This document shows positions 9,062 through 20,173 of a stretch of 20,173 bases of DNA, piece after piece. The translations under genes were made by a program, and so were the position numbers. The stretch is from a virus, in IMG/VR virus record IMGVR_UViG_3300034682_000173, positions 1 to 20,173 of that record. One strand, given 5' to 3'. Every line of letters begins with the position of its first letter. The stretch's first letter is position 1. The notes beneath the pieces were generated by a model. It had not been told where the DNA came from, did no database searches, and saw only the letters and a list, made by a program, of their open reading frames with translations.

Positions 9062-11363
9062 TTGCGTGCTCCATGGCTGTGATGGCCGCGCCCAGTTGCT
9101 CGATGGCGGTCTCGTGATAGTCATATGGCAGTTGCTCCAGCCACTGCTCCACATCGCCGCCACAGGCGACTAGCTCGATCGCCTCTGTACGCATTTGGTC
9201 GACTCGGTCTGATATCCGGTTGTTTGCTTCGCAATCCAGCCACACATGGTCATCGTCCTGTGCGTTCGGGTGGCTCTGGCTGATCATCAGCTGTTTCGTT
9301 TGATGCCCGAGCCAGACAAATTGCCCTTCAAAACTCACCACTGCGCCTTGAATGACCCGATCTTGTGTCCAGTCATCGAGCCCCATGCGGTTCAACTCGC
9401 GCGACAGTGGGTGGCTCTGGCTTACGGTCAGTTCTCTCGTCGGATGGTCAAGCCAGACAAATTGCCCCGCAAACTTCACCACTACGCCTTGAATGACTCG
9501 GTCTTGTTTCCAGTCATCCAGGCCCAGACGGCTCATTTCGTCTAACAACTCCTTCAGTCGGATCCTTTCTTGATCCTCCGTACAGTTATTGTCAGAGCTC
9601 CAAGGGGCTCCGGCTTCGCCGAGCCCAAGATCAACAGCCACAGCACTGCCCTGGCGGGCAGCTAACGGCACCAAGCCCCGAGCTTCGAGGCCATACTTGC
9701 TGATCTCCCAGCCTTCCAGTCTGGTTTCAATCTGTTCGCGCCAGCCCATCACGCCCATCATCTTGGTGACGTCCTCGCCGTATTTGCTGGCGGCCTCCTT
9801 AATGATGTTCAGCAGACGAACCGGGCGATCTGCTCGGCAGCAGACCGGCCCCCCCATGGCATCGGTATACCAGCGCCAGTTGCCGACATCGGCTGCGCGG
9901 CGACAGGTCTCCAGCTGATAATCGAGCGGTGGCCCCACAATGGCACGGACTCGGCGCAGCTCACGCCAAACGGTCACGCTCGGGCCGCCGATCTGTTGGA
10001 ACTGACGGATACCCCACCACGACGCCCAGCCGGTGACGGCGGTGGCAGTGGTCTCTGCGGGTAACCCTGTTTCGTCATCTAGCCCAACGGCGTGGCCGTC
10101 CAAATTCTTGGCGATGTATTTGGCGATGTAGCCGGTGGCACTGCCCTTTGACGCATCGATAAATTTCCAATCGAATCGGGGCGTGATGTCGGTAAATGGC
10201 GGGCAGGAGCGCCCCTGCTTGGTATGGCGGCGCAACAACTCTTCTTTGTCATCCGTGATGGCATATTCCTGCAGGATGCTGATGCATGTTGCCCATTGAT
10301 CCGGATGCACAAACAGCAGCATGTGCCAGTGCGGGGTACCGTCATGGTGTGGTTCGCAGACCCGGAACCCGAATGGCTGGATGTTTTCGCGCTTTAACTT
10401 GGCGCGGGCCTTGGCCCATAGGCGGCACAGGTACTGCTGGGTTTCTCGCGGGGTAACCCCGCTATATTTCTGGTTTTCCACGGCCTTGCCGTTACTGGCC
10501 TGCTTCCATGAATGAAAGCGGCTCGGGGCCGTCCAGGTGATGAAGAGGCCGACATAGCCATTATCTGTCGCTATATCTTCAAAGCCGCGCATGCGGGCCA
10601 TGAGTTCGAACCGGCGGATTTTTGGATTAGCGGGGCTGGCCATAATGGCCTGCTCCAGCGAGATTTCGTAACCGTGTTCTGGATTCACTGCCAGCATGTC
10701 ACGCATCCACAATGCGGCTGCCCGCTTGCGGTTCCGGTGTTCCTGCAGGTTCTTCTCGCTCATGTAGGCCGAGACGCCCTTGCGCACTTTGCCCAGCAGG
10801 ATCGCGCCATGCTCGGTGTATCGGTCCCACGCCCGGCTGATACGGCGCTCCCACCACTTCGGGTCCAGCACGCGGATCAGCACGGATGAAACCCACAGTT
10901 GTCGAGCATCATCATTCGGGAAATTGGCTGGCAGTGGCGGCAAGAAGCCCCACTTCTTTGCGACGCTGCCGACTTGGAAATAGCAATCCATGGTGTCGGC
11001 TTGCTCGGTGCCGAAGTTGGTCATTTCATGCAGGATGAGTGCAGATTGGTTAGCCTGCTCTGCCGCTACTTCTGCTCTGCGCTCTTCGTTGCGCAGCTCA
11101 TGCAGATCCACAGGGAATGCGGCTAATAGACTGGCTAACCAATCGACACGGGCGCGGAGCCAGACGTTGGCCTTGTATGCGTTATAGGCTTCGCCTTTTT
11201 TCCGCTTGGCCAGATACTGCTTGAATATCTCAATGCCTGACTCATCGGGCAGTTTGCCCAACAGATCCATGGACCATGTCAGATCTTCTCTGCCCGGAGC
11301 ACCGACAAAATAGGCCGGTATGTCGATACCGGCCAGCCTGGTTTGCAGTATGACTAGATTCAC
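9045..11363 (-). CDS. A: Rolling-circle replication initiator, gpA-type
   Basis: 772 residues (P2 gpA: 761). The start is a GTG that overlaps the stop of the methyltransferase gene by one base (TAGTG). The family nicks one strand at its own origin and stays covalently joined through tyrosine. Visible motifs are the metal-binding HUH-like P-H-W-H-M-L-L-F with His345 and His347, and the double catalytic tyrosines Tyr412 and Tyr416 in GYIAKYIAKNLDG, spaced as in P2 gpA. The N-terminal 200 residues are helical and specific to the gpA family. Odd feature: residues 611-657 and 658-704 are a tandem duplication. In P2 the origin lies within gene A; I cannot locate it here. Confidence 0.95.
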   Translation of the reverse strand: MNLVILQTRLAGIDIPAYFVGAPGREDLTWSMDLLGKLPDESGIEIFKQYLAKRKKGEAYNAYKANVWLRARVDWLASLLAAFPVDLHELRNEERRAEVAAEQANQSALILHEMTNFGTEQADTMDCYFQVGSVAKKWGFLPPLPANFPNDDARQLWVSSVLIRVLDPKWWERRISRAWDRYTEHGAILLGKVRKGVSAYMSEKNLQEHRNRKRAAALWMRDMLAVNPEHGYEISLEQAIMASPANPKIRRFELMARMRGFEDIATDNGYVGLFITWTAPSRFHSWKQASNGKAVENQKYSGVTPRETQQYLCRLWAKARAKLKRENIQPFGFRVCEPHHDGTPHWHMLLFVHPDQWATCISILQEYAITDDKEELLRRHTKQGRSCPPFTDITPRFDWKFIDASKGSATGYIAKYIAKNLDGHAVGLDDETGLPAETTATAVTGWASWWGIRQFQQIGGPSVTVWRELRRVRAIVGPPLDYQLETCRRAADVGNWRWYTDAMGGPVCCRADRPVRLLNIIKEAASKYGEDVTKMMGVMGWREQIETRLEGWEISKYGLEARGLVPLAARQGSAVAVDLGLGEAGAPWSSDNNCTEDQERIRLKELLDEMSRLGLDDWKQDRVIQGVVVKFAGQFVWLDHPTRELTVSQSHPLSRELNRMGLDDWTQDRVIQGAVVSFEGQFVWLGHQTKQLMISQSHPNAQDDDHVWLDCEANNRISDRVDQMRTEAIELVACGGDVEQWLEQLPYDYHETAIEQLGAAITAMEHANADID
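9252..9533 (-). repeat. In-frame tandem duplication (2 x 141 bp) in gene A
   Basis: Copy 1 (9393-9533, residues 611-657) and copy 2 (9252-9392, residues 658-704) both contain G-L-D-D-W, then D-R-V-I-Q-G, then G-Q-F-V-W-L and S-Q-S-H-P. By my count 30 of 47 residues are identical. The DNA also matches, as in TGAATGAC-C/T-CG and TCTTGT-G/T-TCCAGTCAT. The unit length is exactly 47 codons, so the frame is kept. Confidence 0.92.
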
Positions 11364-11899
11364 TAACTACCGTTCCCTGCAATCAGGTGGCTTATTCCAT
11401 TCGGTAGTGCAACCCGATCTCCGTTATCCCAAATGAACCAGCAATACTCACAGCTATCAGAGGCACCATTCACGAATCGAGGTCTCGGAACCAGCACGGG
11501 TGTCTTGCCCGGGAACCCGATGCGCTTCCAGAACGGCACCCGCTTACGACTCCCCAAAAAGTTGACCCGCTGCAGGTAAATCAGTGTTCCACCCAAGGCC
11601 AACTCCGACATGCTCTTTTCGAGGAATTGCTCTGTCAGTGAAAATGGCGGATTGGTGATAATCAGGTCGAACTGGCCGCCCCAGTTTGTGTCCAAGTAGT
11701 CTCGGCCCAGGCGAATTTCGGCCCACTCTTTTTGCGCTACCGGTAGCGGCACTGCGTCATAAATGGCGCCTTCGCCTTTGCACGGCTCGAGGAACCGATC
11801 ATCCGGATTGATGGTCAGAACGGCCATCAGTGCGGCCACTGCATCGGCTGGCGTTGGATAAACTTCTTTGTCGATTACGGTCCCGTTGGTGCTGCTCAT
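11363..11899 (-). CDS. Class I SAM-dependent DNA methyltransferase (NPPF type, probable adenine)
   Basis: 178 residues from the ATG at 11899, which overlaps the stop of the cytosine methyltransferase (ATGA) and follows a strong GAGGAGG. The frame extends 10 codons upstream, but that part lacks a ribosome site. Motif I is L-E-P-C-K-G-E-G (37-44), for SAM binding. Motif IV is N-P-P-F (83-86), typical of amino (N6-adenine or N4-cytosine) methyltransferases. A C-terminal 'CEYCWFIWDNG' is also seen in small phage enzymes of this type. It is short and has no separate target recognition domain, so its specificity is unknown. No restriction enzyme gene is next to it. It precedes Rep in the same operon. 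Confidence 0.82.
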   Translation of the reverse strand: MSSTNGTVIDKEVYPTPADAVAALMAVLTINPDDRFLEPCKGEGAIYDAVPLPVAQKEWAEIRLGRDYLDTNWGGQFDLIITNPPFSLTEQFLEKSMSELALGGTLIYLQRVNFLGSRKRVPFWKRIGFPGKTPVLVPRPRFVNGASDSCEYCWFIWDNGDRVALPNGISHLIAGNGS

Positions 11900-13551
11900 G
11901 CGGCCTCCTCGTTTGCGCTTTGTTGGCACAGCTCAGGCATGTTTGCTCGCACCAGAGCTTCAGCCAGCGGTGGACAAACGGCATTTCCGCACCGTGCGAT
12001 CTGCGCGGTTTTGGTTATTTTGTTGCCATCTGCATCGTGATCGATGATGTAGTCAGCCGGGAATCCCTGTGCGGCGAACAGCTCATGGGGCTCCAGCATC
12101 CGCATCCCGATATCCACGATTTGATAATCGACACCACTAACAGTCACTAAGCCAAAGCGGTGCTTGGTGGTAACAGTTTGCAGAGGCTCATCGCAGGGGT
12201 GGCCGATGTTGGTGCCGTAATACTTGAGCAGGAAGGCCCGCACTTCTCCGATATGCAGGCCGCCAGCGGTAATAGTTGGCATTGGCTCTGTGACTGGCTG
12301 ACCGTGTTGGCATGTGCCGCGCAGCTTCACTAGGTGGCTTGTGACCAAAGCGTTGTGGTCTATGGTTGTCACTGTCGGCAATGGTTGCTGGAGTTCTGCG
12401 CCGGTAACGCCCGTGTAGTGCTTGGCTAAAAAGGCCGCGACCAGTTGGCATTTTCCTGCGCCGCCAGCGGTGACTGTGCCAAGTGGTGCTTCAATGGTGT
12501 GACCGACAGAGTTTCCGAACTGGCGAGCAATCACCGGGGCTACCAGAGCAAAGTGGCCACCTTTCACCTGGGCGCAGACGGTGCGCAGCGGTTCATCCAC
12601 TGGCATGTTGCGCTGGCTGCTGGCGTTGGCATGTTCGGTGATGAATGGGGTTAGTGTTGGTTCCACCATGGCAAATCCGGGTGATTGGGTGATGGTCTGC
12701 AATGGCTCACCCATTCCCTGACCACGAAATGCCTCGTATCGAGTGCGGTTGCTTGTGTGGTTGCATTTGACGATGAACGGCTCGCCTGCCTCCATTACGA
12801 ACTTCTGCAGACCCTTGGCGATGCGCTTCATGGTGGCTTCTGCAAGCGGGCGCTTGCGCTCGAAGATGGACGGGCATGGCAGAGACCAGTCAATGATCTC
12901 GGCGGCAGTGCGCCACGGCTGCAGCAAGCCTGATTTCACCTCCTGGCTGGACGGATTGCCGTGTGTCTTGGCTGGCCAGACGATTGGGCGGCCATCCCGG
13001 CGGGCAACCAAGAATAAGCGCTTGCGGATGGTAGGTGTGCCGTAATCGCAGGCTCGTAGCTCGCGCCACTCCACCTGGTAGCCCTGGCGGCGCATCGCGT
13101 TGACGAAGCTGTTGAAGGTGCGCCCCTTCTTAGCCGGATCCGGTCTGGCGTTGCCGTCTTCGTCAATCAGCAGTGGCCCCCAAGTGGTGAACTCTTCCAC
13201 GTTCTCCAGCATGAGCACACGGGGGCGAACCTGACCAATCCAGCGCATAGCCACCCAGGCTAGCCCTCGGATCTTCTTTTCCACCGGGGTGCCGCCCTTG
13301 GCCTTGGAGAAGTGCTTACAGTCTGGTGACAGCCAGACCAACCCAACCGGGCGGCCAGCAGCTACGTCTCTCGGAACCACATCCCACACTGACTCGCAAT
13401 AAACCTCGCAGCCAGGGTGATTAACCCGGTACATGGCTATGGCTTTTGGATCATGATTAATGGCCACATCTGGAGTAAAACCAACGGCGTTGGCAATCCC
13501 AGTTGATGCACCGCCACCACCGGCGAAGTTGTCCACGATGATTTCTCTCAT
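11896..13551 (-). CDS. C5-cytosine DNA methyltransferase with repeat-rich variable region
   Basis: 551 residues from the ATG at 13551, which overlaps the preceding stop (ATGA); a longer frame to 13626 is less likely. Motif I is F-A-G-G-G-G (9-14). Motif IV is S-P-D-C (75-78) with catalytic Cys78, where most family members have P-C-Q. Motif VI is E-N-V (116-118). Motif VIII is D-Y-G-T-P-T-I-R-K-R (169-178), and motif X is G-N-A-V-C-P-P (522-528). Between VIII and X, where the target recognition domain belongs, residues 281-476 are six degenerate repeats of an EPLxTVT unit. The enzyme is probably an orphan modifier that protects or marks phage DNA during replication. Confidence 0.93.
   Translation of the reverse strand: MREIIVDNFAGGGGASTGIANAVGFTPDVAINHDPKAIAMYRVNHPGCEVYCESVWDVVPRDVAAGRPVGLVWLSPDCKHFSKAKGGTPVEKKIRGLAWVAMRWIGQVRPRVLMLENVEEFTTWGPLLIDEDGNARPDPAKKGRTFNSFVNAMRRQGYQVEWRELRACDYGTPTIRKRLFLVARRDGRPIVWPAKTHGNPSSQEVKSGLLQPWRTAAEIIDWSLPCPSIFERKRPLAEATMKRIAKGLQKFVMEAGEPFIVKCNHTSNRTRYEAFRGQGMGEPLQTITQSPGFAMVEPTLTPFITEHANASSQRNMPVDEPLRTVCAQVKGGHFALVAPVIARQFGNSVGHTIEAPLGTVTAGGAGKCQLVAAFLAKHYTGVTGAELQQPLPTVTTIDHNALVTSHLVKLRGTCQHGQPVTEPMPTITAGGLHIGEVRAFLLKYYGTNIGHPCDEPLQTVTTKHRFGLVTVSGVDYQIVDIGMRMLEPHELFAAQGFPADYIIDHDADGNKITKTAQIARCGNAVCPPLAEALVRANMPELCQQSANEEAA
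12124..12711 (-). repeat. Six degenerate 33-38-residue protein repeats (EPLxTVT units)
   Basis: The units begin at residues 282 (EPLQTIT), 320 (EPLRTVC), 355 (APLGTVT), 389 (QPLPTVT), 422 (EPMPTIT) and 455 (EPLQTVT), spaced 38, 35, 34, 33 and 33 residues apart. Most continue into a hydrophobic strand such as FALV, CQLV, NALV or FGLV and then a short helix such as FLAKHY or FLLKYYG. Similarity is at the protein level; the DNA copies have diverged. Confidence 0.85.
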
Positions 13552-13877
13552 GCGGCACCGCCTTGTTGCTCGGCTTCGCGGTCGCATAACATGCACGACC
13601 CATACAGGATCGTGCCGTGCTGGCACTGGCGTGGCTCTCTGGAATACGACTTCTCAGCACCAGCTGATAGCGCCTTCACGGCATCAATCACCCCCTGATA
13701 ACCAGCTGCAACCAGATCCAGGCCAAGCACGGTGCAGAGCTCGTCGTAGAAGACGCCAGCCTGGAACCTGTCGACTTCTAGTTCTTCAATGTCCTGCGGC
13801 AAAACGAACGTGATTGTTTCGGCAGACATCATCTTCACGCGCATTTCCGGCGTGATGGTTATGGTTACTTCACTCAC
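13548..13877 (-). CDS. Hypothetical protein with C-terminal Cys cluster
   Basis: 109 residues from the GTG at 13877, which has GGGG 7 nt upstream and overlaps the end of the preceding gene by 8 bp. The first ATG in the frame is only at codon 12 of this form, so a shorter protein is possible. The body is an alternating strand/helix pattern (VTITITPEM, ITFVLPQDIEELEVDRF, VFYDELCTVLGLDLVAAGYQ). The C-terminus holds C-Q-H-G-T-I-L-Y-G-S-C-M-L-C, a C-X9-C-X2-C cluster that with the His could bind zinc. Its TGA overlaps the start of the cytosine methyltransferase. No family is recognised. Confidence 0.65.
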   Translation of the reverse strand: MSEVTITITPEMRVKMMSAETITFVLPQDIEELEVDRFQAGVFYDELCTVLGLDLVAAGYQGVIDAVKALSAGAEKSYSREPRQCQHGTILYGSCMLCDREAEQQGGAA

Positions 13878-15772: not shown

Positions 15773-15904
15773 CTACCCTCTCGGCATCATGACTGTGGTT
15801 TTCGTGACGAACTGGCCGCCGATAACAACGCGGCGGATCCCGACACTCAGGCGCGCACGGCGCACAAGCAGCCGGCTGAGTGGGATGATGGTTTGCGTAT
15901 TCAT
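15773..15904 (-). CDS. Very small (43 aa) basic protein
   Basis: I translated this by hand: MNTQTIIPLSRLLVRRARLS followed by 'VGIRRVVIGGQFVTKTTVMMPRG'. The ATG overlaps the TGA of the CII-like gene, and GGGGGT lies 6 nt upstream. It then runs to 5 bp before the next gene, filling a space that would otherwise be empty in a tightly packed operon. It is strongly basic with a strand-like C-terminal half. No family is recognised. Confidence 0.5.
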   Translation of the reverse strand: MNTQTIIPLSRLLVRRARLSVGIRRVVIGGQFVTKTTVMMPRG

Positions 15905-16419
15905 GCTGTTACCCCCGGGATACCGTTCAGCAGGGCATCGGTGGCGCACGACAACACAGGTACGCTGGCAAACCGCTGCTCGACTTCGTAGATGAAAATG
16001 GCCAGTTGGCCCATGGCTGCGGTGGCAACACCCACCGATCTGTCTCTGTCCGTTTTCGTGACCCGTCCGGTGGTGCTGATCTTGATGGCATCACCCGAGA
16101 GCTGGCCGACTGCCTGACTCAACTCCAGCGCCTTGGTCAGCATTGCGGGTGCCTCCGGTGATTCCGGTATGGCCACCGCTGTCAGCCCACAGCACAGCAA
16201 TGCCCCATCGATCAGGGTTTCATCACCGGTTGCGTGGTAAAGCCCGATCATCTCAGCCACCGTCAACTGGTGCGGCTGGCCTGGGTTTAACTTGTTGCGC
16301 AACATCTGAACTGCGATCCCCGTCTTCCGTGAGACATCGGCGAGGTTATGTGCTGCGGCAAATCGTTCGCACGATGAATCGAATGCGTCTGATTGTTTGC
16401 TCATTTTTGAATCAAACAT
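15901..16419 (-). CDS. Phage regulatory protein CII family
   Basis: About 172 residues from the ATG at 16419 (MFDSKMSKQSDAFDSSCERF). The frame also opens at GTG 16443; the shorter form matches the usual 'MFD...' beginning of this family. The N-terminal helix-turn-helix region 'FAAAHNLADVSRKTGIAVQML' followed by R-N-K-L-N-P-x-Q-P-H-Q-L-T is the signature of the CII-like regulators of P2/K139-type phages (CP76 family). Downstream, 'TGDETLIDGALLCCGL' is also typical. It likely acts on the switch or the early promoter, and it is the second gene of the early operon after cox. It ends overlapping the 43-residue gene. Confidence 0.85.
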   Translation of the reverse strand: MFDSKMSKQSDAFDSSCERFAAAHNLADVSRKTGIAVQMLRNKLNPGQPHQLTVAEMIGLYHATGDETLIDGALLCCGLTAVAIPESPEAPAMLTKALELSQAVGQLSGDAIKISTTGRVTKTDRDRSVGVATAAMGQLAIFIYEVEQRFASVPVLSCATDALLNGIPGVTA

Positions 16420-16464
16420 GGCGATGTCCATCCAATGGTTCACTATGCTTACTATTGGTTTGAT

Positions 16465-16686
16465 TCACGCATCAACAGATGCGGTGATGTTGGCGGCTTT
16501 GGCGCACTTGATGGTATAAGCCACCATGTTGACGCGGATACGCTCTTTGGCGGTGGCCTTGGGCATGATGGGGATTTCACCCTCGGAGATACGCATCCGA
16601 GCGGTGCTATCCGGCATACCGGATCGTTTGCAAAACTCTTCCAGAGTGAGCACTGGCGAGTCGATTTGGATTGCTATTTGTGCCAT
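16465..16686 (-). CDS. cox: Cox-like excisionase and repressor antagonist
   Basis: 73 residues, with AAAGGGG 6 nt upstream of the ATG. The sequence 'LEEFCKRSGMPDSTARMRISEGEIPIMPKATAKERIRVNM' is the winged-helix pattern of the Cox/Apl group: a helix-turn-helix around residues 16-33, then the 'G-x-I-P' turn, a basic loop and a final strand. In P2 and HP1, Cox represses the lysogenic promoter and works with Int in excision. It is the first gene of the early operon and is divergent from cI across a 175-bp switch region, as expected. Confidence 0.85.
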   Translation of the reverse strand: MAQIAIQIDSPVLTLEEFCKRSGMPDSTARMRISEGEIPIMPKATAKERIRVNMVAYTIKCAKAANITASVDA

Positions 16687-16861: not shown

Positions 16862-17623
16862 ATGTCAATTATTAATGCCAATAGCGGCACCGCTGGGGTT
16901 GAGTTTGATCGCGAGGCATTTAGTGCGCGACTTGTAAGGTTGATTGGTCGTGAGTCATATCGATCATTTGCAAAGCGCTGTGATATGTCGGACACAGGCT
17001 TAAAGAAATACGTCCTTGAGGGGACCATCCCGCCTGTCGACAGAGCAATGAAAATTGCCGCAGCGGCTGGAGTTGACTTCGGCTGGTTGTGTACTGGTGT
17101 TGGTAATGAACCAGCCACAGCTGCAGATGGTTTCTATGTGAGGGAGGAAATGCCCTCTAACTATCTGATGAAGAGACCTCTTCAGGCGCCTGAAGTTAGC
17201 AAAGATACCGAGTTCACCCTGATCGACTCCTTCGCTGTGTTCGCTAGTGCGGGACATGGCAGTGAGATCGGTCACGAGCTGCAAACAGAACCGATGTCAT
17301 TTCGTACAGACTGGTTGCGTAAAGAGGGGTTACCAAAAGAACGGCTTGCCGTTATCCGAGCTAAGGGTGACAGCATGGAGCCGACCATCAGCGACAACGA
17401 TGTGATTTTGGTGTTGCTATCGAACGGCGATGCGCCACGGGATGGTCTGCATGTCATTCGTCTGGATGGCGGGTTATTCGTCAAACGGCTGCAGTTCGAT
17501 CCGTTGGGCTCTGTCCATGTGAAATCGGATAACCCCGTTTATACGTCAGTGATCATAACCAAGGAGCAGCGTGACCAGGTCCATATCATTGGTCGCGTTG
17601 TTTGGGCTGGTAAAAAGTTTTGA
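16862..17623 (+). CDS. cI: CI-type lysogeny repressor with S24 autocleavage domain
   Basis: 253 residues. The N-terminal domain (about 15-82) is a CI/Cro-type helix-turn-helix: 'YRSFAKRCDMSDTGLKKYVLEG' and 'RAMKIAAAAGVDFGWLCTG'. The C-terminal domain is LexA/S24-like: a likely cleavage site Ala130-Gly131 (FASAGHG), the catalytic Ser171 in G-D-S-M-E-P, and Lys208 in L-F-V-K-R-L. It should therefore be inactivated by RecA during DNA damage, as for HP1/K139-type repressors and unlike the short, non-cleavable P2 C protein. It starts the cI, zinc-ribbon, BRCT, int operon. Confidence 0.93.
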   Translation: MSIINANSGTAGVEFDREAFSARLVRLIGRESYRSFAKRCDMSDTGLKKYVLEGTIPPVDRAMKIAAAAGVDFGWLCTGVGNEPATAADGFYVREEMPSNYLMKRPLQAPEVSKDTEFTLIDSFAVFASAGHGSEIGHELQTEPMSFRTDWLRKEGLPKERLAVIRAKGDSMEPTISDNDVILVLLSNGDAPRDGLHVIRLDGGLFVKRLQFDPLGSVHVKSDNPVYTSVIITKEQRDQVHIIGRVVWAGKKF

Positions 17624-17644: not shown

Positions 17645-18226
17645 ATGGCGCTAGTTAAATGCAAAAAATGCAAAGCCGAGGTTTCCAGTGTTGCTAAGGT
17701 CTGCCCAACGTGTGGCGTGAAAAGCCCTGGTACCAAATGGTGGCACAAGTTGATCGTCGCAGCGGTTCTGGTTTTTCTTATCGTCTTGGTATTTTCCCGA
17801 GGTGCGGCAAATAAAGACGGAAGCGTGAACACGCCTGAAGCTACAGGTACAGATCAATCAGCACGAACTGCTCAAGGTACAGCAGCCGATACCTATTCCG
17901 CTTCGGCTCAGAAATTTACGGTAACGAAAACCAAAGACTTTAGCTTTGCTGGCCGCAACCGTAACCAGGTGTTTATCGTTGTTGATAACCCTGGCAGCGA
18001 CTCGCAGATAATCGGTTCTGCCGTTCAGGCGATAAAGGATTTGCAACGCGAAACCCATTGTGTGGTCTGTGATGTGGTCGTTGAGGTCAGCCCCGGATCT
18101 GCATCTGATGGTGACACTCTGGCACTTGTTCACCATGTTGCTGATGGCCTGGGTAATGGTGGGGAAACCAATGACGGCCAGTTTTGGTTCGGCACCATTA
18201 GAAGTAACCCAATTCAATTTCAATAG
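17645..18226 (+). CDS. Zinc-ribbon single-pass membrane protein, accessory gene
   Basis: 193 residues, 21 bp after cI, with AAGGATGG before the ATG. Residues 6-23 form a zinc ribbon, Cys6-X2-Cys9 and Cys20-X2-Cys23. Residues about 35-50 (LIVAAVLVFLIVLVF) are one transmembrane helix, so the ribbon is probably cytoplasmic. A Ser/Thr/Ala-rich linker follows, then a folded domain (about 88-190) with 'NQVFIVVDNPGSDSQII', a Cys139-V-V-Cys142 pair and 'DGQFWFGTI'. The gene lies in a cargo position between repressor and integrase and would be expressed in the lysogen. No known function; effects on superinfection or on the host envelope are possible. Confidence 0.85.
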   Translation: MALVKCKKCKAEVSSVAKVCPTCGVKSPGTKWWHKLIVAAVLVFLIVLVFSRGAANKDGSVNTPEATGTDQSARTAQGTAADTYSASAQKFTVTKTKDFSFAGRNRNQVFIVVDNPGSDSQIIGSAVQAIKDLQRETHCVVCDVVVEVSPGSASDGDTLALVHHVADGLGNGGETNDGQFWFGTIRSNPIQFQ

Positions 18227-18257
18227 CTGGCAATCATTCAACAAGGATTCCTGATCA

Positions 18258-18893
18258 ATGAAGCTAGATAGAGACAACCAACCAGGCGCCAACTTAAACA
18301 AGAAAGCCAATATCGATAAATCGATTGAGAACCTGCTGGGCCTTTGTAGTGGGCTCTCTGCCGATCAGCATCTTAATGACCATGAAATATTCTTTCTGCG
18401 GAATTGGCTGGATGACCATGCCCTGATCCGTGATTGCTGGCCCGCCAATGTAATCGGTGAGCGAGTGCTGTCGGTGCTGGCAGATGGAGTGATTACTGAC
18501 GATGAGCGCTCTGACCTGCTGGATACACTGAATCAGTTGCTCGGCTCACCGCATGAGATTGGCACATCATCTGGCGTTTCTTCGTCTTTGCCGGTGACTC
18601 CTGGTGTCGTTGTTTCCTATCCGTCTTTTTTCTGCCTAACAGGCAAGTTCGTCACCGGCACTCGCTCCAAGTGTGAAGACTTGGTTGTTCGTTGTGGCGG
18701 CAGGCCTGAATCGGATGTGACTCTGAAAACCAATTATCTGGTGATCGGTGATTTGGCGAGTAGGGATTGGAAGTTCTCATCCTTCGGTCGGAAGATCGAG
18801 CGAGCCATGGATCTGCGCGAGAAGGGCCAGCAGATATCCATCCTGTCGGAAGAGATGTGGATGGACGGCTTGAAGACTAACGGCGTGGTGTAA
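18258..18893 (+). CDS. BRCT-domain protein with helical, TerB-like N-terminus; accessory gene
   Basis: 211 residues, 31 bp after the zinc-ribbon gene, with AAGGA upstream. Residues about 20-97 are helical with D-D-E-R near 81-84 ('VLSVLADGVITDDERSDLLDTL'), reminiscent of TerB-like domains. Residues about 121-205 are a BRCT domain: 'SFFCLTGKFVTG', the Gly147-Gly148 turn, 'TNYLVIGDLASRDW', and 'GRKIERAMDLREKG' with 'ISILSEEMW'. It resembles the LigA and DNA polymerase-associated BRCT group. BRCT domains bind DNA ends or phosphoproteins; in a lysogen-expressed gene this might mean sensing DNA damage or foreign DNA. The stop is 2 bp from the int start. Confidence 0.85.
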   Translation: MKLDRDNQPGANLNKKANIDKSIENLLGLCSGLSADQHLNDHEIFFLRNWLDDHALIRDCWPANVIGERVLSVLADGVITDDERSDLLDTLNQLLGSPHEIGTSSGVSSSLPVTPGVVVSYPSFFCLTGKFVTGTRSKCEDLVVRCGGRPESDVTLKTNYLVIGDLASRDWKFSSFGRKIERAMDLREKGQQISILSEEMWMDGLKTNGVV

Positions 18894-18895
18894 TC

Positions 18896-19963
18896 GTGAG
18901 CGTCAGGAAGCTAGACGATGGAGGAAAGAAACCTTGGCTTGCCGAGGTGTATCCGTCTGGCCGTGACGGCCCCCGCAAGCGCAAGCGCTTTGCAACAAAG
19001 GGCGAAGCTACCGCGTGGGAGAAGTGGCAACTTGAGGAAACCAACTCAAAACCATGGCTCCCTGAGTCGCACAAAAATGAAGTGGACTCCAGGCGGCTGA
19101 CTGATCTGGTTGATGTTTGGTACCGCATGTACGGAGCCAGCTTATCGTCTGGCGACACGATCCGGGCTCTCTTGGTTCGTGTTTGCACTGCCCTTGGTAA
19201 CCCTGTGGCCACCGAGTTTACTGTTCGCGACTTCGCCGCTTATCGTGAGGCTCGGATTTCTGGGCAACTGGTGTTCTCTCGCTATGGCCACGGCGGCCGG
19301 CCTGCTGGCCCCAATTCAGTGAACCGCGAGCAGTCACTCATGTCCTCCATGTTCAATGAGCTTATCCGGCTTGGTGAGTGGCAGCACGCCAACCCTCTCC
19401 AAGGGTTGCGACTGTTCACAATCCCGGAAGGTGAGCGCGGGTACCTGACGCACGATGAAATTTCAGCGCTGATCGCTGTCTGTGAGGGAAGCAAGAACCC
19501 CGACCTGGCCACTGTCGTGAAGCTATGTCTTGCCACCGGAGCTCGCTGGTCTGAAGTTGAACTGATGACTGGTGCAAGTGTCTCCCCCGGCCGGATTACC
19601 TTCTTGCGCACAAAGGGCAAACGCAATCGTACCGTGCCGATCACTGATGAGCTGTATGACTTATTGCCCCAAAAAAGCGGGCGCCTGTTCTCTGATTGCT
19701 ATGAATATTTCAGAACCGCGATCAGCAGGGCCGGGATATCGTTGCCCGATGGACAGAGCAGCCATGTGCTTCGCCACACATTTGCCTCTCATTTTATGAT
19801 GAGCGGGGGTAACATCTTGGTATTGCAGCGCATCCTTGGGCACACATCGATCACGATGACCATGAGATATGCTCACTTTGCCCCAGATCACCTGGATGAA
19901 GCGATCAGGCTAAACCCTCTCGCCACATCCGATAAATGGCGGCAAAATGGCGGCAGAAAATAA
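18896..19963 (+). CDS. int: Tyrosine site-specific integrase
   Basis: 355 residues from a GTG start 2 bp after the BRCT gene; the Shine-Dalgarno is weak, so translation may be coupled. The N-terminal arm-binding part (MSVRKLDDGGKKPWLAEVYP and a basic stretch at 24-35) is typical of P2-like integrases. The catalytic residues are all present: Arg217 (ATGARWSE), Lys240 or Lys242 (beta-hairpin TKGKRN), His290 and Arg293 (HVLRHTF), His316 (LGHTS) and Tyr325 (MRYAHF). It catalyses integration at, and with Cox excision from, the site next to the FtsY-like gene. Co-transcription with cI is likely. Confidence 0.96.
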   Translation: MSVRKLDDGGKKPWLAEVYPSGRDGPRKRKRFATKGEATAWEKWQLEETNSKPWLPESHKNEVDSRRLTDLVDVWYRMYGASLSSGDTIRALLVRVCTALGNPVATEFTVRDFAAYREARISGQLVFSRYGHGGRPAGPNSVNREQSLMSSMFNELIRLGEWQHANPLQGLRLFTIPEGERGYLTHDEISALIAVCEGSKNPDLATVVKLCLATGARWSEVELMTGASVSPGRITFLRTKGKRNRTVPITDELYDLLPQKSGRLFSDCYEYFRTAISRAGISLPDGQSSHVLRHTFASHFMMSGGNILVLQRILGHTSITMTMRYAHFAPDHLDEAIRLNPLATSDKWRQNGGRK

Positions 19964-20040: not shown

Positions 20041-20173
20041 ATGAAAAAAGGTTTCCTGTCGTGGCTAGGTCTCGGCCGTTCGGCCAATGAAGCAGCATCC
20101 CCTGTCGACGCAGCGCCCGAGGCGGCCGAGCTCGATCCATCACCAGTCACTGAGGTGGATAACTCCAGCGCCG
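20041..20173 (+). CDS. ftsY: Signal recognition particle receptor FtsY, N-terminal fragment (window edge)
   Basis: 44 codons are visible: MKKGFLSWLGLGRSANEAAS and then an acidic, Ala/Pro/Glu-rich stretch. The start K-K-G-F-x-S-W-L-G-x-G resembles the membrane-targeting N-terminus of E. coli FtsY (RGFFSWLGFG), and the acidic region that follows matches the FtsY A domain. The GTPase (NG) domain lies beyond the window. FtsY brings ribosome-bound signal recognition particles to the inner membrane and is essential. Only GAGAAATC-like weak ribosome-site sequence precedes the ATG. No tail or lysis gene follows, so this is taken as host DNA. Confidence 0.75.
   Translation, partial: MKKGFLSWLGLGRSANEAASPVDAAPEAAELDPSPVTEVDNSSA

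Follow-up and report, generated by a model that had tools for sequence, protein, structure and literature searches.

The window analysed here is a whole IMG/VR virus record of 20,173 bp, in which the interval between the genes for the CI repressor (cI) and the integrase (int) is filled by two plus-strand open reading frames, ORF1 and ORF2, with gaps of 21, 31 and 2 bp. When the coordinates were recomputed they agreed exactly with the original prediction in position, strand and spacing. The features of this region are:

15901-16443, minus strand: CII-like activator (PF06892, E 1.7e-32)
16465-16686, minus strand: Cox-like excisionase/repressor, divergent from cI (phrog_575, E 3.7e-22)
16862-17623, plus strand: CI-type repressor with an S24 peptidase domain and a GDSMEP serine motif, head of the presumed lysogenic operon (Pfam PF00717, E 3.9e-18; PHROG repressor)
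17645-18226, plus strand: ORF1, 193 aa, with a Cys4 zinc ribbon, one transmembrane (TM) helix and a shortened DUF4875 domain (Pfam, Foldseek, AF2)
18258-18893, plus strand: ORF2, 211 aa, with a four-helix domain and a BRCT domain, of the phrog_3989 family (PHROG, AF2, PDB profile search, Foldseek)
18639-18794, plus strand: segment of ORF2 encoding T128, G129, R136 and K179, the equivalents of 5'-phosphate-binding residues of Rfc1 (conservation among 90 relatives)
18896-19963, plus strand: tyrosine integrase, the distal border of the variable slot (Pfam PF24624/PF00589)

An AAGGA-type ribosome-binding site precedes both ORF1 and ORF2. A promoter scan found no plus-strand promoter-like match within the cI-int interval, and all of the plus-strand terminator-like matches in a scan of the interval lie inside the ORFs, making it plausible, as far as the sequence can indicate, that cI, ORF1, ORF2 and int are read as a single transcript. 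The GC content of the interval is 0.498, compared with 0.560 for the contig. Elsewhere in the window two minus-strand genes adjoin the replication gene, one encoding a C5 DNA methylase-type protein of 576 aa (11896-13626) and the other a putative small adenine methyltransferase with an NPPF motif (11363-11929); both are possible anti-restriction cargo. The ORF found 3' of int (20041-20173, plus strand), which starts MKKGFLSWLGLGRSANEAAS and continues past the end of the contig, looks like a host protein with an acidic start, for which FtsY came under consideration, and could indicate the flank of the attachment site.

ORF1 begins with a zinc ribbon (C6xxC9...C20xxC23), which is followed by a single TM helix (residues 36-54) and by a DUF4875 domain (residues 87-181). 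The domain matches PF16175 with an E value of 4e-12 and 46.6 bits, against a curated cut-off of 25, and the match is shortened, covering only positions 2-97 of the 156 in the profile. The net charge of +7 N-terminal to the TM helix and -2 C-terminal to it points to a predicted N-in/C-out topology, in which the zinc ribbon would be cytoplasmic and the DUF4875 domain would lie on the periplasmic side. In the AF2 model the pLDDT is 64.5 overall and about 80 in the core of the DUF4875 domain, and the DUF4875 protein DESPIG_00776 from Desulfovibrio piger (4LG3) was recovered both by Foldseek (E 5e-6) and by sequence profile (E 2.6e-15). The CxxC/CxxC ribbon, single TM helix and folded domain of the original prediction are thus all present. 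The second Cys pair that it described also exists (C139/C142) but is missing from the other DUF4875 proteins compared, and a functional role for it was rejected. A PADLOC match of ORF1 to Cas1 (0.06) was regarded as chance. DUF4875 is rare. A search found nothing in 369 Gammaproteobacteria genomes, a negative to be read with caution because not one genome gave a signal, nor in plasmids, and a close-relative search for ORF1-like proteins found none.

A MALVKCKEC zinc ribbon with a TM helix is the N-terminus common to 36 IMG/VR loci (loci are given here by L numbers). Several of these genes lie directly 3' of a repressor, and in P2-like contigs they lie directly 5' of int (L092, L098 and L104; also L106, L115, L117 and L125). 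The C-terminal domain of the encoded proteins is DUF4875 in L090 and L092, and none was recognised in L012, L016, L097, L104, L115, L117 and L125. While the N-terminus is near constant, the C-terminal domain varies by phage (L012:4300-5004, L016:2490-2981, L097:3551-4105, L115:5001-5465), as though one fixed anchor held swappable ectodomains.

ORF2 gives a full-length match to phrog_3989 (E 6e-63, residues 17-207), and its AF2 model, with a pLDDT of 89.5, comprises four helices (residues 15-95) and a canonical BRCT domain (residues 124-207). At 17.3 bits, the BRCT match of the sequence alone falls under the Pfam cut-off of 21.3; the presence of the domain, as originally predicted, was confirmed by a PDB profile search (RFC1, E 1e-6; LigA, 1e-5), by the AF2 model and by Foldseek. 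The BRCT domains of RFC1 and LigA are its nearest solved relatives by both profile and fold. The helical part carries twin D-x6-E motifs (D36/E43 and D76/E83) that are kept in 87-89 of 90 relatives. The TerB-like label that the original prediction gave to this part is tentative at best: it has no Pfam TerB match and no PDB relative, and hhalign gave 42% over one motif of the TerB alignment. A PADLOC match of ORF2 to PDC-S48 (7e-6) was set aside, PDC-S48 being an unvalidated candidate.

In yeast Rfc1, residues Thr166, Gly167, Arg174 and Lys209 bind the 5' phosphate (PMC9359705). The equivalent residues of ORF2 are highly conserved among 90 non-redundant relatives, with T128 kept in 85, G129 in all 90, R136 in 85 and K179 in 86. 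The spacing of eight residues from T to R is identical in ORF2 and Rfc1, and the choice of K179 as the equivalent of Lys209 follows its K-x3-A motif and helix position rather than a superposition. Every residue conserved across the family is kept in the ORF2 of the window. To judge from these residues, the BRCT pocket of ORF2 most likely serves to bind DNA ends or junctions that carry a 5' phosphate, which gives concrete form to the DNA-end role first suggested for the BRCT protein and provides for the whole family a directly testable prediction involving four residues. If true, ORF2 would be a dedicated prophage DNA-end sensor, and end binding would give a reason for the recurrence of BRCT genes at lysogeny control regions.

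The ORF2 family adjoins repressors across unrelated temperate phages and is also found in bacterial chromosomes. Annotated phage records matching ORF2 number 30, of which 17 match over most of the query, and there are 277 relatives in IMG/VR and 74 genome loci. A strong match to phrog_3989 (E below 1e-45) was found in 16 of the 369 Gammaproteobacteria sampled; the weaker matches in these genomes are many, and most cover just a short BRCT stretch within a frame of ~650-800 aa, as expected of LigA. Homologues of ORF2 occur as stand-alone, non-prophage chromosomal genes in SAR86 and Pseudomonadales genomes. The chromosomal helical-BRCT copies (L144:4935-5828 and similar SAR86/Pseudomonadales loci) have a conserved neighbourhood that includes a TonB receptor and an SPFH/band-7 protein, and these neighbours were uninformative as to function. 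On a Hymenobacter plasmid (L212, NZ_CP094535.1, 1056-1709) a BRCT gene of the ORF2 family lies 3' of a TerB/ATPase/DEAD-helicase operon. Directly 3' of the BRCT gene in two further loci (L014:5628-6293 and L005:5582-6013) are staphylococcal-nuclease proteins with a signal peptide, one of them with Excalibur; a secreted nuclease in this position could attack incoming phage DNA.

The cI-integrase interval of K139/phiO18P-type phages was named an antiviral hotspot by Rousset et al. 2022 (PMC9122126). The cI, int and Rep of the window are nearest to those of the Aeromonas phages phiO18P, P05B, A051 and LPM4; its CI is 50-54% identical to the CI proteins of P05B, phiO18P, A051 and LPM4, and its integrase 56-57% identical to those of LPM4, phiO18P and A051. 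Comparison of the interval across relatives, which had been proposed along with the original prediction, showed that its content changes, with 40 distinct upstream regions among 80 integrase relatives. In a scan of 33 slot proteins, including ORF1 of the window, seven KAP/PifA-like matches, one PARIS AriA match and one PD-Lambda-1 match were obtained. Glo homologues occupy the slot in phiO18P (phiO18P_3, phmmer 2e-7) and P05B (P05B_17, 3e-6); it is empty in A051, contains secreted proteins and a zinc ribbon-TM-DUF4875 protein in LPM4, and in K139 is occupied by a BRCT gene and glo. For K139, a Vibrio cholerae phage, the GenBank annotation describes the glo product as periplasmic and 'involved in phage exclusion', and has the lysogenic operon transcribed from the promoter PL. 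ORF1 has no sequence similarity to Glo and was ruled out as a Glo homologue.

A second type of BRCT protein, of about 160 aa, was seen in the slot of four integrase relatives (L215:2092-2580, L217:4462-4989, L222:4500-4988 and L245:3060-3542). It is without the four-helix part and starts instead with a different domain that has a KTFRKDRV motif and recalls WYL; the FTG and K-x3-A motifs are kept. With this second architecture also present, BRCT proteins are recurrent in the cI-int slot.

The window thus combines a cI-int position in a P2-related phage with high turnover between conserved flanks and known defence occupants, and the variable lysogenic slot that had been proposed to carry this cargo proves to be an antiviral hotspot already described (PMC9122126), with strong variation among integrase relatives. 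Because the slot is such a hotspot, the most likely role of the pair is to help in the exclusion of other phages from the lysogen. The explanation we prefer, to which we give an about even chance of being correct, is that ORF1 and ORF2 are interchangeable lysogeny cargo of the cI-int antiviral hotspot that serve exclusion or defence, ORF1 through exclusion and ORF2 through DNA-end binding. Both proteins would probably be translated from the transcript that also encodes the repressor, during the silent state of the prophage. ORF1 would most likely be an inner-membrane superinfection-exclusion protein, in the role of Glo and the Glo-like membrane proteins of the closest relatives, and its periplasmic DUF4875 domain could block the entry of DNA from another phage. 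ORF2, in the cytoplasm, may provide an accessory function or second line on incoming or damaged DNA, after binding a 5'-phosphate end or junction, and might cooperate with ORF1. Counted against this explanation are the lack of similarity between ORF1 and Glo, and the rarity and shortening (97 of 156 positions) of DUF4875; moreover, stand-alone ORF2 homologues outside prophages are not predicted by a purely anti-phage role. Should it hold, ORF1 would tie the MALVKCKEC zinc ribbon-TM family, which is common directly 3' of cI, to envelope-level exclusion. The slot belongs to a kind established as an antiviral reservoir, so that its uncharacterised occupants are good candidates for new exclusion or defence genes.

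The main rival explanation is that ORF2 is a lysogeny regulator, sensing DNA ends or damage and tuning the repressor level or induction, with ORF1 as an unrelated moron. In viral contigs the ORF2 homologue is usually directly 3' of a CI-like repressor, 17 of 41 candidate proteins encoded upstream matching a single repressor PHROG, and several P2-like groups have a plain cI-BRCT-int order with nothing else in the interval (L024, 17 times; L054, eight times; L025, five times; and L080), as would suit a regulator. A 2026 preprint likewise connects prophage cassettes with BRCT genes to the sensing of DNA damage and views them as an alternative to regulators of the quorum-sensing type (PMC13345283), but this claim is based on annotation. 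Among 34 neighbouring CI proteins the S24 serine motif is present in those of the window and L079 only, so that the BRCT gene is not tied to SOS-cleaved repressors and a link to SOS-type CI was judged unsupported; the BRCT gene is also absent from many P2-like relatives. We consider a regulatory role for ORF2 unlikely, if still a serious competitor to exclusion or defence cargo.

It is improbable that the prophage carries the pair as neutral or decaying passengers, with ORF1 a DUF4875 protein that has been truncated and ORF2 a repair-type BRCT protein that has been left over. The DUF4875 match over 97 of the 156 profile positions and the Cys pair unique to the window copy would fit such decay, but both ORFs are intact, tightly spaced and provided with ribosome-binding sites, the fold core of DUF4875 can still be recognised in ORF1, and ORF2 retains all of the residues conserved across its family.

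We also asked whether the two genes form one module. Zinc ribbon-TM and BRCT genes are adjacent in at least five lineages (the window, L012/L128, L016, L097 and L125), with their order reversed in L016. They occur together in 3 of 34 viral BRCT clusters, 1 of 74 genome loci and 2 of 36 zinc ribbon loci; the ORF1-type and ORF2-type genes are thus usually apart and do not form an obligate module. A strict two-gene module was rejected, each gene being mostly without the other, and the single dedicated module originally envisaged is not supported, as ORF2 homologues stand alone in non-prophage chromosomes and the zinc ribbon-TM proteins beside other BRCT genes have different C-terminal domains.

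A TM or signal-like segment was found in 13 of 20 partners of BRCT genes and in 25 of 230 background ORFs (Fisher p 1e-7), in a comparison where some of the background ORFs are spurious and the partners were hand-picked. Slot occupants without a BRCT gene also favour envelope proteins (12 of 33 with such a segment, p only 0.05 against the BRCT partners), and the BRCT partnership may therefore reflect a preference of the slot alone. Pentapeptide, nuclease and lipoprotein partners of BRCT genes are as common as zinc ribbon-TM partners. On the broadest reading of these partnerships, BRCT genes would belong to a widespread, hitherto undescribed exclusion system of temperate phages, whose cytoplasmic component, a BRCT protein, senses the free 5'-phosphorylated ends of incoming genomes and is paired with a swappable envelope partner from the lysogenic operon (zinc ribbon-TM proteins with varying ectodomains, Glo, BamE-like or other lipoproteins, or secreted nucleases); we regard this as a long shot. 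Also improbable is a two-gene defence system with ORF2 as the detector of phage DNA ends and ORF1 as a membrane effector that kills or depolarises the cell, for although the shared lineages, the envelope bias of the partners and the L212 operon, which resembles the Shango defence system (PMC10250203), would agree with it, both genes are mostly alone, partner types, C-terminal domains and gene order vary as described above, and ORF1 has a single TM helix and is without pore or toxin features.

Set beside known systems, the hotspot and the ORF2 family (phrog_3989; orf2 of K139) are already known, so that the pair is not as undescribed as it first appeared, and it is the combination of cargo that is new. 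The hotspot of Rousset et al. 2022 has the same cI-int position as the window, the same phage lineage by cI, int and Rep, the same turnover and occupants that match defence models; the main text of that paper does not mention BRCT, zinc ribbon or DUF4875 (PMC9122126). For ORF1, 4LG3 supplies a solved DUF4875 fold, with the zinc ribbon and TM context absent from the tool output for that structure. A nearer counterpart is gp54 of the closely related Aeromonas phage LPM4, which has the same zinc ribbon-TM-DUF4875 plan and lies directly 5' of int, but is 345 aa in length, with a full DUF4875 domain and an extra C-terminal part, in an interval without a BRCT gene. ORF2 resembles the single BRCT domains of Rfc1 and LigA, which are its best structural and profile matches, and keeps the residues of the 5'-phosphate pocket; unlike these proteins, it has no clamp-loader or ligase domains, its BRCT domain is fused to a four-helix domain, and a W-containing insertion precedes the second helix. 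In the cI-orf2-glo-int operon of K139, Glo is unrelated to ORF1 in sequence and is encoded on the opposite side of the BRCT gene, and a second helical repeat is present at the N-terminus of orf2. The K139 operon nevertheless has the same flanks as the window and an envelope gene adjacent to a homologue of ORF2 (36% over 87% of ORF2).
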